From a bacterium (GTDB taxonomy: Bacteria; JAHJDO01): a stretch of DNA of 55,606 nucleotides. Both the position numbers and the translations under genes were made by a program. Positions 27,699 through 40,948 of this stretch are shown here, in pieces. The notes under the pieces are model-generated. The model searched no databases. It was not told the DNA's origin and was given only the letters and a program-made list of their open reading frames with translations. Every line of letters starts with the position of its first letter. Positions within the stretch are counted from its first letter, which is position 1. The stretch is taken from assembly GCA_030652805.1 (NCBI GenBank), contig JAUSPT010000044.1, positions 1-55,606 on the forward strand, written 5' to 3'.

Positions 27699-27902
27699 CC
27701 GGAAAACGTCCCTTCTGTCATTGCGAGCGTTAGCGAAGCAATCTCATCCTGTCTGTTGAATTCCAGAGCTTCTTTCAATGTTATAGCGAGATTTTTCATC
27801 AATTCACCATGCGTATGTCCTTGGCAATTTACGCCTGGCACTTCTTCTATCCAGCCAATCGTCATCTTTTTTTGTTATTGCCGTGTATTTGTTTTCTCTC
27901 AT
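27695..27902 (-). pseudogene. HicB-family antitoxin-like gene with an A7 frameshift
   Basis: A start ATG at 27902 follows a strong AGGAGGG site and encodes RENKYTAITKK, then the frame breaks. In the next frame GWIEEVPGVNCQGHTHGELM is a clear HicB-type sequence that continues to a stop at 27695. The break falls in a run of seven A (plus-strand T at 27867-27873); six A would join both parts into one protein of about 68 residues. It may be a real mutation, a slippage site or an assembly error. The last 16 residues (DEIASLTLAMTEG) come from an interspersed repeat of the type GATTGCTTCGCTAACG. Confidence 0.7.
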
Positions 27903-27949
27903 AGCTAAAACCCTCCTATTCCATTTTTGCTTTCCAATTTTGAGTTTTT

Positions 27950-27977
27950 ATTATACTTAAAACTTTTATAAAATCAA
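27950..27977 (-). promoter_or_regulatory. Promoter of the HicB-like/DUF5678/retropepsin operon
   Basis: On the minus strand TTGATT (27977-27972), a 16-bp spacer and TATAAT (27955-27950) form a plausible vegetative promoter. It lies between the MITE-like element and the strong ribosome site of the HicB-like gene. Confidence 0.55.
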
Positions 27978-27992
27978 ACACATTGTGCTTTA

Positions 27993-28123
27993 GAGTTTCC
28001 CCAAATTTTAACAGATTTGGGGACCAATTACAGGGAGGATTATCTATTCCCACTTCCTAACTTCCACAACTTACTGATATTACTAATGTTACGCTTCCTA
28101 CTATCAAAAAAATGGGGAAACTC
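27993..28123. mobile_element. MITE-like element related to the IS4-family element
   Basis: This 131-bp element is bounded by GAGTTTCCCC and GGGGAAACTC inverted repeats. Its reverse complement matches the left 134 bp of the IS at 39232 with about a dozen mismatches (roughly 90% by eye). It has no coding capacity and contains an internal hairpin (AAATTTTAACAGATTTGGGG). No target duplication is obvious. It sits between the DUF6717-like gene and the HicB-like operon and, with that operon and its promoter, accounts for the 430 bases between 27699 and 28128. Confidence 0.85.
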
Positions 28124-28128
28124 AAGGA

Positions 28129-28560
28129 TCATTCATCTATTGTCTCTGCTTTAGCATATATATTTTTTGGAGTCTTCTTGTAATACTTAAACAGAGCTGG
28201 ACATAACCAGCCTTCCATTTTTAAACTATCTGAATAATACCAATTCCCATCATTTTCTTTTCTTAACCATGTTAATTTTATTTGATAACTTGGAAATGGA
28301 TTAACTGAAAACAATAATCTAAACCCATTTTTAGCATTTGGAATATCCTTTGTAATCTGATTAATTATTTCGGGTATCCCCGCGACAAATGGTTCTTGAT
28401 ATAAATTCACTCTTTTATCGTCAAAGACCCATGTTCCATTATGCCAATATGGCTTTATTATTAATATTGCGTTATCGGGTGCATCTAGATTTTTCTGTTT
28501 ATATGAAAATATTATAAACACGATTGCAATACTTATTAATAAAATAACTAAATATCTCAA
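28129..28560 (-). CDS. DUF6717-like protein with membrane anchor
   Basis: This 143-residue protein has an N-terminal membrane helix (LVILLISIAIVFIIFSY). It is followed by a domain with IKPYWHNGTWVFDDKRVNLYQEPFVAGIP and GFRLLFSVNPFP...EGWLCPALFKYY, which I associate from memory with DUF6717. Biochemical role unknown. A TTG start five bases after AGGAGG is well supported. It lies alone between the PilX-like gene and the MITE, so it is probably an accessory gene. Confidence 0.7.
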   Translation of the reverse strand: MRYLVILLISIAIVFIIFSYKQKNLDAPDNAILIIKPYWHNGTWVFDDKRVNLYQEPFVAGIPEIINQITKDIPNAKNGFRLLFSVNPFPSYQIKLTWLRKENDGNWYYSDSLKMEGWLCPALFKYYKKTPKNIYAKAETIDE

Positions 28561-28689: not shown

Positions 28690-30705
28690 TTAATCCTTCA
28701 CTTCCTTCCATGTATAGCTAAAACTGACTGCGCCGGGAACAGCATTGGGGTCATTCTGCTGCCAGGGGAGATCGCCTCGGAAAGCTTCAGTATCTTTCTC
28801 TATTTCTAAATTGGTCAAAGGGCTGTCCGGGGTGAGAGTTAGCCCACGTCTTGTTGCTAAGTTTCCCGTAATTTTAAGATTACTGCTTTCGGGAACTCCG
28901 AATTTATCATCCGCGTAAATACAGCTATATACATCTGTTGCTCCAGCAGGTTTAATATAGATTTGTTTGGCAAAATAGCATCCATCATCTGTGGTAACAT
29001 ATAGATTATACCACCAGTATTCAGTAGTAAGAGCGGGAAGATCAAAGTTACAGGTAATATATGTTCCATCATTGATCTCATTTTCCTGTTCTCCTGAAAG
29101 ATCTTCAACTTCTTGCCGTGGATAGTCGCTTATTTCAATGATATCTATAGCGGCACCTGAATTTTTAGTATAAATCTTAAGATAGATGGTCCCTTCATTC
29201 TCAAACTCACTTGTCTCCTGAGTAAAACCAGCATCCTCATAACATCTAATAGAATGTTGTGGTTCGGAAGGGCTACCGTTAATAAAGTAGGCATAAACCT
29301 GATTTCTCAACTGGGTTCTATTACTTCTTCGGCAAATCTGCACCCGGAAGTAGTACCAGTCATTTCCATCGGGCGGTGGTGGCAAACTACTGGTATGAAA
29401 CGTATAGGAAAAGAGATCCCCACTTGGTGTTCCTATATAGACATCGTTATAATAGGATAGGTCATGGTTAGCAATGGTTATCCAACCGTATGCTGAACGC
29501 CAGTCTCCAGGATTACGTTGATAAGTGATAGTAATATTCTCATTATTAAAAATAAATGTATCTTCTCCCGCGCTATCCTCAATATTCAATATTCTATCAT
29601 CTTCATAATAAGGGGGTTCAATAAGCTCTTCCTGATAACTTACATCCCCAAAAGACACTAAAGCCAAAGTACATCTATCTCTCCAGAGTCCTATTATCCC
29701 ACTATGAGGTTCAATATAGCCATTGATAGTCATGTTTCCCCCGGCTACAATAGTCCCTACCCCGGCAGCATAATTATTCCCGAAAATCTGCGGTCCTCTA
29801 TAGATGACATTTCCAATAGTTACATTACCTTCGGCAAATATCAAAGTAGCTGTCCCGCTGAGGATGGAATTCAGCGGAAGATCTCCTGTAATAGTAAAGT
29901 CACCAAGATGATAATTCCCCTGCGCTTGCGCTCTTTGCCTATAGTAGTCTTTAGTCTCCTCCCCCATATAAGGAGGCAGAATTACACCAGTATCGGCATA
30001 GGCTCCATCTCTCCAAGGGGTGCCAGTCCAGCCGGATGCATCTATTTGATTAGCTGAATAAACAGTGCCAGCCACTACCTGTCCACTGCCATTTAAAAAC
30101 GTAATTGTTTCATTGGAATGGACATCAGCATCGCCGTCATTATCTTCGGTTGTAGAAAGAGTATAACTGCTTCCGTCAAAAACTAATGGGGAATCGGCAA
30201 TAACATCTTGTGAGTCAGTATACAAAGCATAACTATAAATTGGATGAGTGCTTTCATTAATATCATAAATCCCTTCCATTTCTACTATTCTCTGTGCCCG
30301 GAAATTAGTTTCTTGAGGCACATAACCCTTGGAAGTAACTATTATTCCTGTATCACTCTCTACTTTTACCCGCCAGGTGCCCCTGCCCAGAGTTTGTTCC
30401 GGAGTCCAATCTGTAGCCCATAAATTATCCTGTGTATTAAGATACCAGACAGCATACTGCCTGCCGGCTTCAGCAATCTGCAGAGCCTGCTGAGACGCTA
30501 AAAAATTGACCTTGCCAGCGCTTTGAGTGGAAAAAAGCGGACATATCACAAGTCCCAGAAGAGAGAAAAGAATCAGAACAAAAACAGCCATAACTGCAGC
30601 TACGCCTCGGTTGTTTCCAGAAGGCAGAAGGCAGAGGGCAGAAGGCAGAAAATTTTCAGCTTTTGAGTTTTGCGTTTTGCATTTTGCGTTTTGAGTTTTT
30701 TTCAT
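28690..30705 (-). CDS. PilX-like minor pilin with large extracellular domain
   Basis: This 671-residue protein has one N-terminal helix, RGVAAVMAVFVLILFSLLGLV, followed by QQALQIAEAGRQYAVWYL. That is the pattern of PilX-type proteins that prime pilus assembly. The rest is a large beta-rich domain with glycine repeats and few cysteines, probably exposed. The first ~33 residues (KKTQNAKCKTQNSK...) are translated from an interspersed repeat that also supplies the only start codon. It overlaps the next upstream gene by 4 bases, so it belongs to the minor-pilin operon. Confidence 0.82.
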   Translation of the reverse strand: MKKTQNAKCKTQNSKAENFLPSALCLLPSGNNRGVAAVMAVFVLILFSLLGLVICPLFSTQSAGKVNFLASQQALQIAEAGRQYAVWYLNTQDNLWATDWTPEQTLGRGTWRVKVESDTGIIVTSKGYVPQETNFRAQRIVEMEGIYDINESTHPIYSYALYTDSQDVIADSPLVFDGSSYTLSTTEDNDGDADVHSNETITFLNGSGQVVAGTVYSANQIDASGWTGTPWRDGAYADTGVILPPYMGEETKDYYRQRAQAQGNYHLGDFTITGDLPLNSILSGTATLIFAEGNVTIGNVIYRGPQIFGNNYAAGVGTIVAGGNMTINGYIEPHSGIIGLWRDRCTLALVSFGDVSYQEELIEPPYYEDDRILNIEDSAGEDTFIFNNENITITYQRNPGDWRSAYGWITIANHDLSYYNDVYIGTPSGDLFSYTFHTSSLPPPPDGNDWYYFRVQICRRSNRTQLRNQVYAYFINGSPSEPQHSIRCYEDAGFTQETSEFENEGTIYLKIYTKNSGAAIDIIEISDYPRQEVEDLSGEQENEINDGTYITCNFDLPALTTEYWWYNLYVTTDDGCYFAKQIYIKPAGATDVYSCIYADDKFGVPESSNLKITGNLATRRGLTLTPDSPLTNLEIEKDTEAFRGDLPWQQNDPNAVPGAVSFSYTWKEVKD

Positions 30706-38101: not shown

Positions 38102-39231
38102 ATTTAATAATTTTCTTAATCCACCCTACGAGTATTTTCCCCAAAAAAGTTTTTTTAATGCGTTCCTTCCAAAACATTAGTTGCTTGTTTTCTAAGAAAA
38201 TTCGGCTTAGGCGTATATTTACCTTCCCATAATGCATTGAGTCTAACAGAGCCTGATTTAAAAATTTATAGTCAACCCCCTTTATTTTTGCCTCACCTGG
38301 ATTTCTTCTATAACTGTCATGGTTAGCAATCAAAGATAAATTATTTTCAATGCAATATGTATATAAATCACTTCCAGGATGCGGTGTATAGTACGCTGGG
38401 CTACAATGAGCGGGCTTAATCTTCTTAATCATTCTCACTGTATCCATCATTTCTTTCTTGGTCTCAGTGGGAATACCCATCATATAATTGGCCCAAATTT
38501 TTATTCCATATTTCTTACACATTTCAGCAGCTTTATAATTCTGTTCAACAGTAGTTCCTTTTCGTAAAAAATTTAATATTCTTTGGTTTCCGCTTTCAAA
38601 CCCGATAATAAACATTGCTAGTCCTGAGTCCCTCATTTGCTTTACCAAATTTTCATTTTTACAAATGATGTCTGCTCTGGTTTGACAGTAGAAAGGCTGG
38701 TTAAATCCATTATTTTTATATTTTTCACAGAATTCATTTATCCATTTTTTATCTTCTGTCAAACAGTCATCATGGATTAAAAAACTCTTGAATCCATATC
38801 TTTTTTTTAAGATTTTCAGTTCTTCAACTACATTGTCAACTGACCTTCGTCGAACTTTTTTCCCAAAAAGAATTTTTTCTGAAGGCTGGCAGAAACTACA
38901 ATTATATATACATCCTCTTCCCGCAATAATAGTGGAAAAAGGGCTGGGGAAGTCTTCTATGCAAGGTTTTTCAAAACCTTCATAAAGCTCTCTATCTATA
39001 AAAGGAAGTTTATCAAGCTCCGGCTTGATTCCTTGAATAATCCTTTTTCTATTTTTGCCTTCTTGAATATTTTTTAATAGATTAGTAAAACTTATTTCTC
39101 CTTCACCAAGCATGATATAATCAATTTTTGAGTTGGAAGCTACTTCATCCAACATCAAACTAGGATGTGGTCCCCCCACTACTATTTTAATCTCCGGATT
39201 AACTTTTTTAATAATGTCAATACATCGCATG
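38094..39231 (-). pseudogene. B12-binding radical SAM protein, 3' part cut by IS
   Basis: This piece encodes the end of a B12-binding domain (CIDIIKKVNPEIKIVVGGPHPSL) and the radical SAM domain with GRGCIYNCSFCQPS (CxxxCxxC cluster). Its 5' end is separated by the IS at 39232-40683. Joining it to 40684-40948 with one copy of the 8-bp duplication restores a single 464-residue frame (NPVM-RCIDIIKK). Enzymes of this architecture modify sugars or lipids in surface glycan clusters. The residual frame that runs into IS sequence may still make a truncated protein. Confidence 0.92.
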
Positions 39232-40683
39232 TTGGAGTTTCCCCATTTTTTTGATAATAAGAAGTATAACGTTAGTAATATCAGTAAGTTAAGGAAGTTA
39301 GGAAGTGGAAATAGAGAATCCTCCCTGTGATTGGTACCCAAATCTGTTAAAATTTGGGGAATCTCTAAAAACCAAAACAAGGAGGATCTCAATGGAGAAT
39401 ACTAGCAAAACAGCAGGCAAATTAAAAGCGCAGATCAAAATGTTCAGTAACAAGATAGGAAGAGGGCTATCGAAACCGAAGCAAAAGTTTTTGTTTGGAA
39501 TGATGTATGGAATACAAGCATGCAAGGATATAAAATTATCAAACATTTCCAGAAGTTTGGAAGAAAAAATACGTTTAATAAAGACAGAGAACAGGTTATC
39601 CAGACAGATGTCACAGAAAGACCTGACACAAGAAATTAACAAGAAAATAATAGAGGAAGGAGCTTTAAGGATAAGTAATGATACAGTGTTAGCAGTAGAT
39701 TTGGGAGATATTTCTAAGGAGCATAGTAAAAGTTTAGAATTTTTAGAGAGGGTGAGAGACGGAAGTACAGGAAAGATAAAGAAGGGATATTGGACATGTG
39801 AGATAGTAGGAGCGGACATAGACGGAGAAGAATTAATTCCGCTTTACAGCGAACTTTATTCAGCAGGAGCAAAAGGATTCAAAAGCGAAAATGAGCAGAT
39901 AGAACATGCAGTAGAAGCGGTAAGCAGTGTGCTGAATGGCAGAGGTATATACTGCATAGACAGAGGAGGAGACCGCAAAAAGATAATAAAACCTTTTTTA
40001 GAAAATAAAAATAGGTTTGTAATAAGGATGGTTGGAACAAGAGATTTATGGATTGGGGATAAAAAGAGAAGGGCTCTAAGGATAGCGAATAACTGTCACT
40101 GCTGGAGAACAAGAGAATTAGTAATCAGAAAAGAAGGAAAACTGGATAGGAGAAAAATATCCATAGGTTCTAAGAAAGTGAAATTAACATTTTGGGATGA
40201 GCCGCTATGGATGGTAGTAATAAAAGGGTTTGGAGATAAACCAATGATGCTGCTAACTAATACAAAGCCGATAAGAAGCAAATATGATATGGAATGGATA
40301 TTGGATACATATTTAACCAGATGGAAATGTGAGGAGAGCTACAGATTCATTAAACAGTCATACAATTTGGAGGACGTCAGAGTTAGAAGTTACATTGCGA
40401 TAAGGAACACAGTAGCTTTGATTCATGCGATATTTTACTTTGTCAGTATTGAGTTAGGGAAAAAGATAAAACTGAACATATTATTGAGAAAGTTGTATGA
40501 GAAAGCGAAAAGATTTTTTGAGATACCAGACTTTAAGCAATACGCCATAGCTGACGGTATATACAAGGTTTTATTCAACTACAAATCTAAAAATTTCGCG
40601 AATTCTGACAAAAATAAATGCTCAAATCAGTTATCCTTCGATTTTGCAGTCACTTATGAATAAATTTTTTGGGGAAACTCCAG
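39232..40683 (+). mobile_element. IS4-family insertion sequence, 1452 bp
   Basis: The inverted ends are TTGGAGTTTCCCCA on the left and CTGGAGTTTCCCCA on the right (read inward). The target duplication ATCGCATG is at 39224-39231 and 40684-40691. A subterminal repeat, GGGGAATCTC at 39356-39365, pairs with the left end, so the first 134 bp form a MITE-like unit. A hairpin CCCAAAT/ATTTGGG lies in front of the transposase and may block read-in transcription. The perfect duplication suggests recent insertion. Confidence 0.93.
39392..40663 (+). CDS. IS4-family DDE transposase
   Basis: This 423-residue transposase begins at an ATG 7 bases after AAGGAGG. A longer frame from 39305 would use no good site. 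The acidic triad is visible as LAVDLGD, YCIDRGGD and the E in YLTRWKCEESYRFIKQ; the last stretch fits the Y-(2)-R-(3)-E-(6)-K signature of IS4. It appears complete and uninterrupted. It reads opposite to the surrounding glycan operon. Confidence 0.93.
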   Translation: MENTSKTAGKLKAQIKMFSNKIGRGLSKPKQKFLFGMMYGIQACKDIKLSNISRSLEEKIRLIKTENRLSRQMSQKDLTQEINKKIIEEGALRISNDTVLAVDLGDISKEHSKSLEFLERVRDGSTGKIKKGYWTCEIVGADIDGEELIPLYSELYSAGAKGFKSENEQIEHAVEAVSSVLNGRGIYCIDRGGDRKKIIKPFLENKNRFVIRMVGTRDLWIGDKKRRALRIANNCHCWRTRELVIRKEGKLDRRKISIGSKKVKLTFWDEPLWMVVIKGFGDKPMMLLTNTKPIRSKYDMEWILDTYLTRWKCEESYRFIKQSYNLEDVRVRSYIAIRNTVALIHAIFYFVSIELGKKIKLNILLRKLYEKAKRFFEIPDFKQYAIADGIYKVLFNYKSKNFANSDKNKCSNQLSFDFAVTYE

Positions 40684-40948
40684 ATCGCATGACTGGGTTG
40701 AAATCTACACTCATCATGGTTATACCAACTACATCAGGATTTTTATTCATTATTTTTTGAGTGAAGTCTTGCCAGTTCTTCAACCTGCGTAAATCTATTA
40801 GTTCAACATTACTAAAACCTTTGCTATTTGCAAAGGCAGCTATAGAACAAAGACCATGACTTATCCATGTGCTTTCAGTAAGGTCTCCTTTGCCAAAACT
40901 GTTAAATCCACACGACGTAATACTTGCATGAACCAGGGCTATTTTCAT
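40684..40948 (-). pseudogene. B12-binding radical SAM protein, 5' part cut by IS
   Basis: This piece encodes the first 88 residues, MKIALVHASITSCGFNSFGKG through GITMMSVDFNPVM, an N-terminal cobalamin-binding-like domain. Its start overlaps the methyltransferase stop by 4 bases. The residual frame continues into the IS end (to 40631) and stops, giving a 105-residue truncated product. Together with 38094-39231 it forms the interrupted gene. Confidence 0.92.

Follow-up and report, generated by a model that had tools for sequence, protein, structure and literature searches.

The 131-bp segment found at positions 27993–28123 may be the orphan left end, that is a truncated relic, derived from a sister of the resident IS4-family element (probability of about 0.48). 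This segment had originally been predicted to be a MITE-like copy of one end of the IS, in which the IS's own subterminal repeat acts as a second end. We rank the truncated relic slightly above this reading, and the data do not decide between the two. The window, i.e., the whole stretch of 55,606 nucleotides analyzed here (contig JAUSPT010000044.1), contains the following features.

27983–27992, minus strand: overshoot past the inner end of the short unit, TAAAGCACAA against TAAAAACCAA in the IS leader, first 4 bases identical and 7/10 overall
27993–28123, minus strand: 131-bp short unit, which reproduces the left end of the IS and reads GAGTTTCCCC at either end
27993–28002: inner repeat of the short unit, identical to the terminal repeat (one mismatch in the IS counterpart)
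28048–28055, minus strand: left-end motif in the short unit, AAGTGGGA, kept with one change, 71 bp from the left terminus
39224–39231, plus strand: left target duplication of the resident IS, ATCGCATG
39232–40683, plus strand: resident IS4-family element, with 13-bp ends TTGGAGTTTCCCC / GGGGAAACTCCAG
39303–39310, plus strand: left-end motif AAGTGGAA, common to five related ISs, at a fixed distance from the left terminus
39353–39361, plus strand: TTTGGGGAA, 9-bp direct repeat with the right end (40668–40676), possible deletion endpoints
39356–39365, plus strand: inner inverted copy of the terminal repeat, GGGGAATCTC, one base off GGGGAAACTC
39392–40663, plus strand: intact transposase ORF of 423 aa (DDE_Tnp_1), with D103-D190-E314 and Y307-R310-E314-K321
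40684–40691, plus strand: right target duplication of the resident IS, ATCGCATG

Read on the forward strand, the short unit starts with GAGTTTCCCC and finishes with GGGGAAACTC, which agrees with the IS-type ends that had been announced. It aligned with positions 39235–39365, at a distance of 11 kb, at 119 of 131 positions, with 12 substitutions and no gap (90.8% identity, E 2e-47). The claim of about 90% identity to the first 134 bp of the IS at 39232 was therefore borne out, and both this start and the length of 134 bp hold only if the three outer bases TTG are included.

MITEs are usually explained by the internal deletion of a full IS. The short unit resembles them by its size (131 bp, under 500 bp), by the absence of a transposase gene and of any ORF of at least 100 aa, and by terminal inverted repeats like those of the autonomous element. 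Also, it copies one IS end and carries the inner inverted repeat exactly at its other boundary, and to this extent the architecture proposed by the original prediction was recovered. The mobility that the name implies was not: the unit is present as a single copy in the assembly, its target duplication scored 0 against 7–12 for most comparators, and matching bases continue past its inner end (4 bases, or 7 of 10). A count of 131-bp units against full IS copies gave one of each, with an 8-bp duplication for the IS and none for the short unit. The case named as refuting the original prediction, in which all other copies are decayed full-length relics, was half borne out: within the genus, a left-end relic is the sole further partial copy.

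The resident IS is flanked by an exact duplication of 8 bp, a score equaled or bettered at 0.36% of random sites. Its transposase presents the residues D103, D190, and E314 and the sequence Y307-x2-R310-x3-E314-x6-K321, which were invariant across six aligned sequences. The IS4 family is recognized by YREK and DDE motifs together with a duplication of 8–12 bp (De Palmenaer et al., 2008, PMC2266710). The spacing D-86-D-123-E falls within D(60-110)D(100-150)E, the signature Y-(2)-R-(3)-E-(6)-K is present, and the duplication (8 bp in the resident IS, 8–12 bp in its relatives) is close to 10 bp rather than 4–6 bp. The transposase also passed the Pfam model DDE_Tnp_1, and a profile search of solved structures weakly retrieved the Tn5 transposase. 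It reached only 23–37 bits with the NCBIfam models IS4, IS701, and IS1634, whose cut-offs lie between 100 and 250; a score above a curated IS4 model is an NCBI naming criterion which is absent from the 2008 definition (PMC2266710). As all NCBIfam models remained below cut-off, we consider the resident IS as a divergent member of the IS4 family. Searches by peptide patterns retrieved no close relative of the transposase among 84,980 genomes or in viral contigs.

The ends and the duplication length point to IS4Sa as the nearest subgroup, to which the resident IS may belong. The resident IS shares with IS4Sa and the IS4 family the YREK motif, the D-86-D-123-E spacing, a single ORF, a length of about 1.45 kb, and the 8-bp duplication. 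The CAGGA(G/C) ends of its relatives fit the pattern CA------T, and such ends with duplications of 8–10 bp point to the subgroup. In contrast, the ends of the resident IS start with TTG/CTG rather than CA, and its NCBIfam IS4 scores are far under the cut-off.

For the short unit, we infer the following events, as well as their order. A full IS would formerly have occupied the locus, with its left terminus at 28123, adjoining the DUF6717 gene. A later deletion would have taken the rest of the element, with an inner break about 4–10 bp past the inner repeat of the IS, and would have joined the remnant to the sequence at 27983. The MITE appearance would then result only from the inverted copy of the terminal repeat that lies in the IS leader near the break. 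We favor this reading because the short unit lacks a target duplication, while the resident IS and most comparable elements have one of 7–12 bp; because the leader homology passes the inner repeat and stops where a stretch shared with the sister genome G002 starts; and because the unit is a single copy, in a rearranged region, with a comparable relic in the genus. Nevertheless, in an element of 1.45 kb such a break must have occurred no more than about 10 bp from the inner repeat, which is perfect in the short unit.

Alternatively, the transposase may have used the inner inverted repeat as the partner of the true left end and mobilized a 131-bp cassette, the duplication of which would later have been lost; we hold this reading as possible, on a tentative basis. 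The exact coincidence of the boundary with a perfect 10-bp copy of the end speaks for it, whereas the single copy and the missing duplication speak against it. The bases adjoining the inner end also bear on this question. In the IS orientation, the inner side reads GGGGAAACTC TAAAGCACAA TGTG... in the short unit and GGGGAATCTC TAAAAACCAA AACA... in the IS, and the BLAST match runs 4 bases (TAAA) beyond the repeat, to 39369, with 3 of the next six bases identical. A unit bounded by the 10-bp repeat should lack such matching bases, so that a cassette moved in this way needs a chance extension. The TAAA overshoot fits a remnant broken 4–10 bp deeper in the IS leader, and it is also compatible with a 13-bp repeat TTAGAGTTTCCCC followed by one chance base. 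As a mark of the truncated relic, the overshoot is short: TAAA has a frequency of about 1% in the window, and three outer bases may be part of the terminal repeat.

The same bases allowed us to weigh a conventional MITE, produced by internal deletion between TTTGGGGAA at 39353 and the right end (40668) with the true right end kept. Indeed, TTTGGGGAA stands at both sites of the IS, and the short unit agrees with the right end in reading GGGGAAACTC rather than GGGGAATCTC. However, its outer bases are TAAA as in the inner leader instead of the predicted CAG, and among the readings considered this one fits the overshoot worst. With the missing duplication and the single copy also against it, we regard an internal deletion as quite unlikely.

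The stretch shared with G002 covers positions 27945–27983 (95% over 39 bp), and its first base overlaps the last base of the overshoot. This 39-bp match gave a first impression of an insertion junction. It is promoter-like (TTGATT-16-TATAAT, minus strand, 27950–27977), so that the end of the homology, which coincides with it, need not be a recombination junction; the match proves little, and this weakens one of the arguments for the truncated relic. On the other side, the DUF6717 gene (28129–28560), found in none of the four other genomes of the genus, has its stop codon about 5 bp from the short unit. The locus of G002 retains the PilZ-side gene and the gene starting at 28690, with about 120 bp of unrelated sequence in place of the short unit and the DUF6717 gene. 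This indicates that the region has been rearranged, and such remodeling can also account for a lost target duplication. The unit follows the DUF6717 stop codon by about 5 bp and directly precedes the conserved promoter-like stretch, a position that could suggest a regulatory element kept by the host between the two. No terminator was found, the folding of the short unit barely exceeds that of shuffled sequences (z -1.65), and the unit is absent from G002, which makes a host-kept element highly improbable. Also, a dispersed repeat, of which G000, G002, and G003 contain several copies, covers positions 27714–27747 (GTCATTGCGAGCG...GCGAAGCAATCTCAT).

The assembly (2.0 Mb, 102 contigs, 95.6% complete) contains one short unit and one IS, and no other copy above threshold; at this completeness a copy of the short unit may have been missed. 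Two further exact GAGTTTCCCCA 11-mers (L034, L040) had no second end nearby. Among the four further genomes sampled in the genus, the sole other partial copy is a 48-bp left-end relic in G001 (L004), cut at about 50 bp. Like the short unit, it derives from the left end of an IS of this group, comes from this genus, and lacks a transposase; unlike the short unit, it was cut far from the inner repeat and is not bounded by terminal inverted repeats. By reading, at five differences between the short unit and the IS, L004 agrees with the unit at 23 and 26 and with the IS at 31, 32, and 37. This split of two against three indicates that the short unit and the resident IS are sisters, and on sequence grounds the resident IS as it stands is better called a sister of the short unit than its demonstrated parent. 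G002 has a transposase gene 43% identical to the resident one (L007), with no terminal repeats found on either side.

A scan of 84,980 genomes for GAGTTTCCCC-N95-125-GGGGAAACTC gave 14 matches, and the same terminal-repeat pattern was found in none of the viral contigs. Four matches carry the extended repeat GAGTTTCCCCATTTTT at both ends, namely L046 and L049 in one Synergistales genome, L047 in Lachnospiraceae A2, and L053 in a Clostridia MAG, and related transposases are encoded in all three genomes. L042 (WOR-3) and L055 (Methylomirabilota) have perfect 10-bp ends, with no related transposase in their genomes. Seven others (L043, L044, L045, L048, L050, L051, L054) lack a convincing extended terminal repeat and appear to be chance matches, and L052 is a different, palindrome-rich sequence. 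L042 (126 bp) was rejected as a case of the same architecture of left end plus inner repeat: its homology to the short unit is limited to about the first 47 bp (79%), and its interior is no better than shuffles.

Exact copies of the 16-mer numbered 19 in G386, 20 in G387, and 51 in G388. Among the 17 elements measured for target duplications, exact ones of 7–12 bp flank L064, L066, L068, L074, L076, L077, L080, L083, L086, and L090, and imperfect ones L047 and L091; no clear duplication was found for L065 (= L042), L072 (= L049), L053, L055, and L081. The duplications typically begin 3 bp outside GAG. True MITEs with this terminal repeat thus exist in other bacteria, where they are common, and this favors a cassette moved by way of the inner repeat. 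The GAGTTTCCCCATTTTT-ended MITEs (76–219 bp, related transposases in the same genomes) share the terminal repeat of the short unit. They differ from it in that several are multicopy with duplications of 7–12 bp; the short unit occurs once, has no duplication, and reproduces a single IS end. By eye, L053 in G388 is similar at its two ends to the left and right termini of the IS L056, and it seems to carry both true IS ends, contrary to what the pairing with an inner repeat would produce. On reading, size variants in G386 (136 and 76 bp) and in G387 (190, 105, and 115 bp) seem to result from internal deletions, which is in line with the conventional origin considered above. In G386, a 136-bp MITE adjoins a fragment of an IS right end (L049:3790–4086), and two tandem IS right-end segments lie about 161 bp apart in L062:504–680, an arrangement suggestive of the insertion of one element into another or of recombination between them.

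The left end of the IS group was compared between the window IS and four ISs (L008–L011) from genomes of different families, whose transposases are 37–41% identical to that of the window. In the resident leader, the inverted 12-mer matches at 10/12 (p 0.011 against shuffles). L010 also gave 10/12 (p 0.015), L008 and L009 gave 8/12 (p about 0.35–0.38, not significant alone), and no inner inverted copy was found in the leader of L011. L008 and L010 have TGGGGGAA(G/C)TTCATG in common at different offsets, with 14/16 in a 16-base window against a shuffle maximum of 13. Inner inverted copies in some leaders, partly tracking each element's own terminal sequence, also speak for a second end; the inner copy is probably a transposase operator or a second docking site. 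The motif AAGTG(G/A)AA lies 71 bp from the left terminus in four ISs and 72 bp in one, and none of the five has it at the right end; its shared 7-mer score was equaled by 0 of 2000 permutations, and the leaders are otherwise little alike (26–42% in bases 17–66). The distant elements L056 and L058 have CCAAAATAT at 72–73, which is only suggestive in such AT-rich sequence. AAGTG(G/A)AA is likely a left-end-specific binding or regulatory site. The proposal that the terminal repeat, AAGTGGAA at 71–72 bp, and the inner inverted repeat make the left end an independent module, which serves for transposase docking or autoregulation and can be mobilized alone, as a short element whose second end is the inner repeat, seems rather doubtful.

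Two other observations were made on these ISs. By eye, positions 39310–39391 and the leaders of L008–L011 seem to contain an arm able to pair with the ribosome-binding site, as with GGGTCTCCT...AGGAGACCC in L008; by analogy with IS10/IS50, it could block translation from outside transcripts. Also, the related IS in G258 (L010:1300–2780) is flanked by GGTTCAAATC, which is T-arm-like, and may lie in a tRNA gene.

If the pairing of a true end with an inner repeat is real, it would represent another route to MITEs. If the short unit is a relic, it shows in practice that an inner inverted repeat makes a truncated IS end resemble a MITE, and that this name requires a target duplication and the copy number beforehand. 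The left-end motif, with its fixed spacing from the terminus, would provide a separate clue to the way in which the transposases of this group recognize the left end or regulate it.
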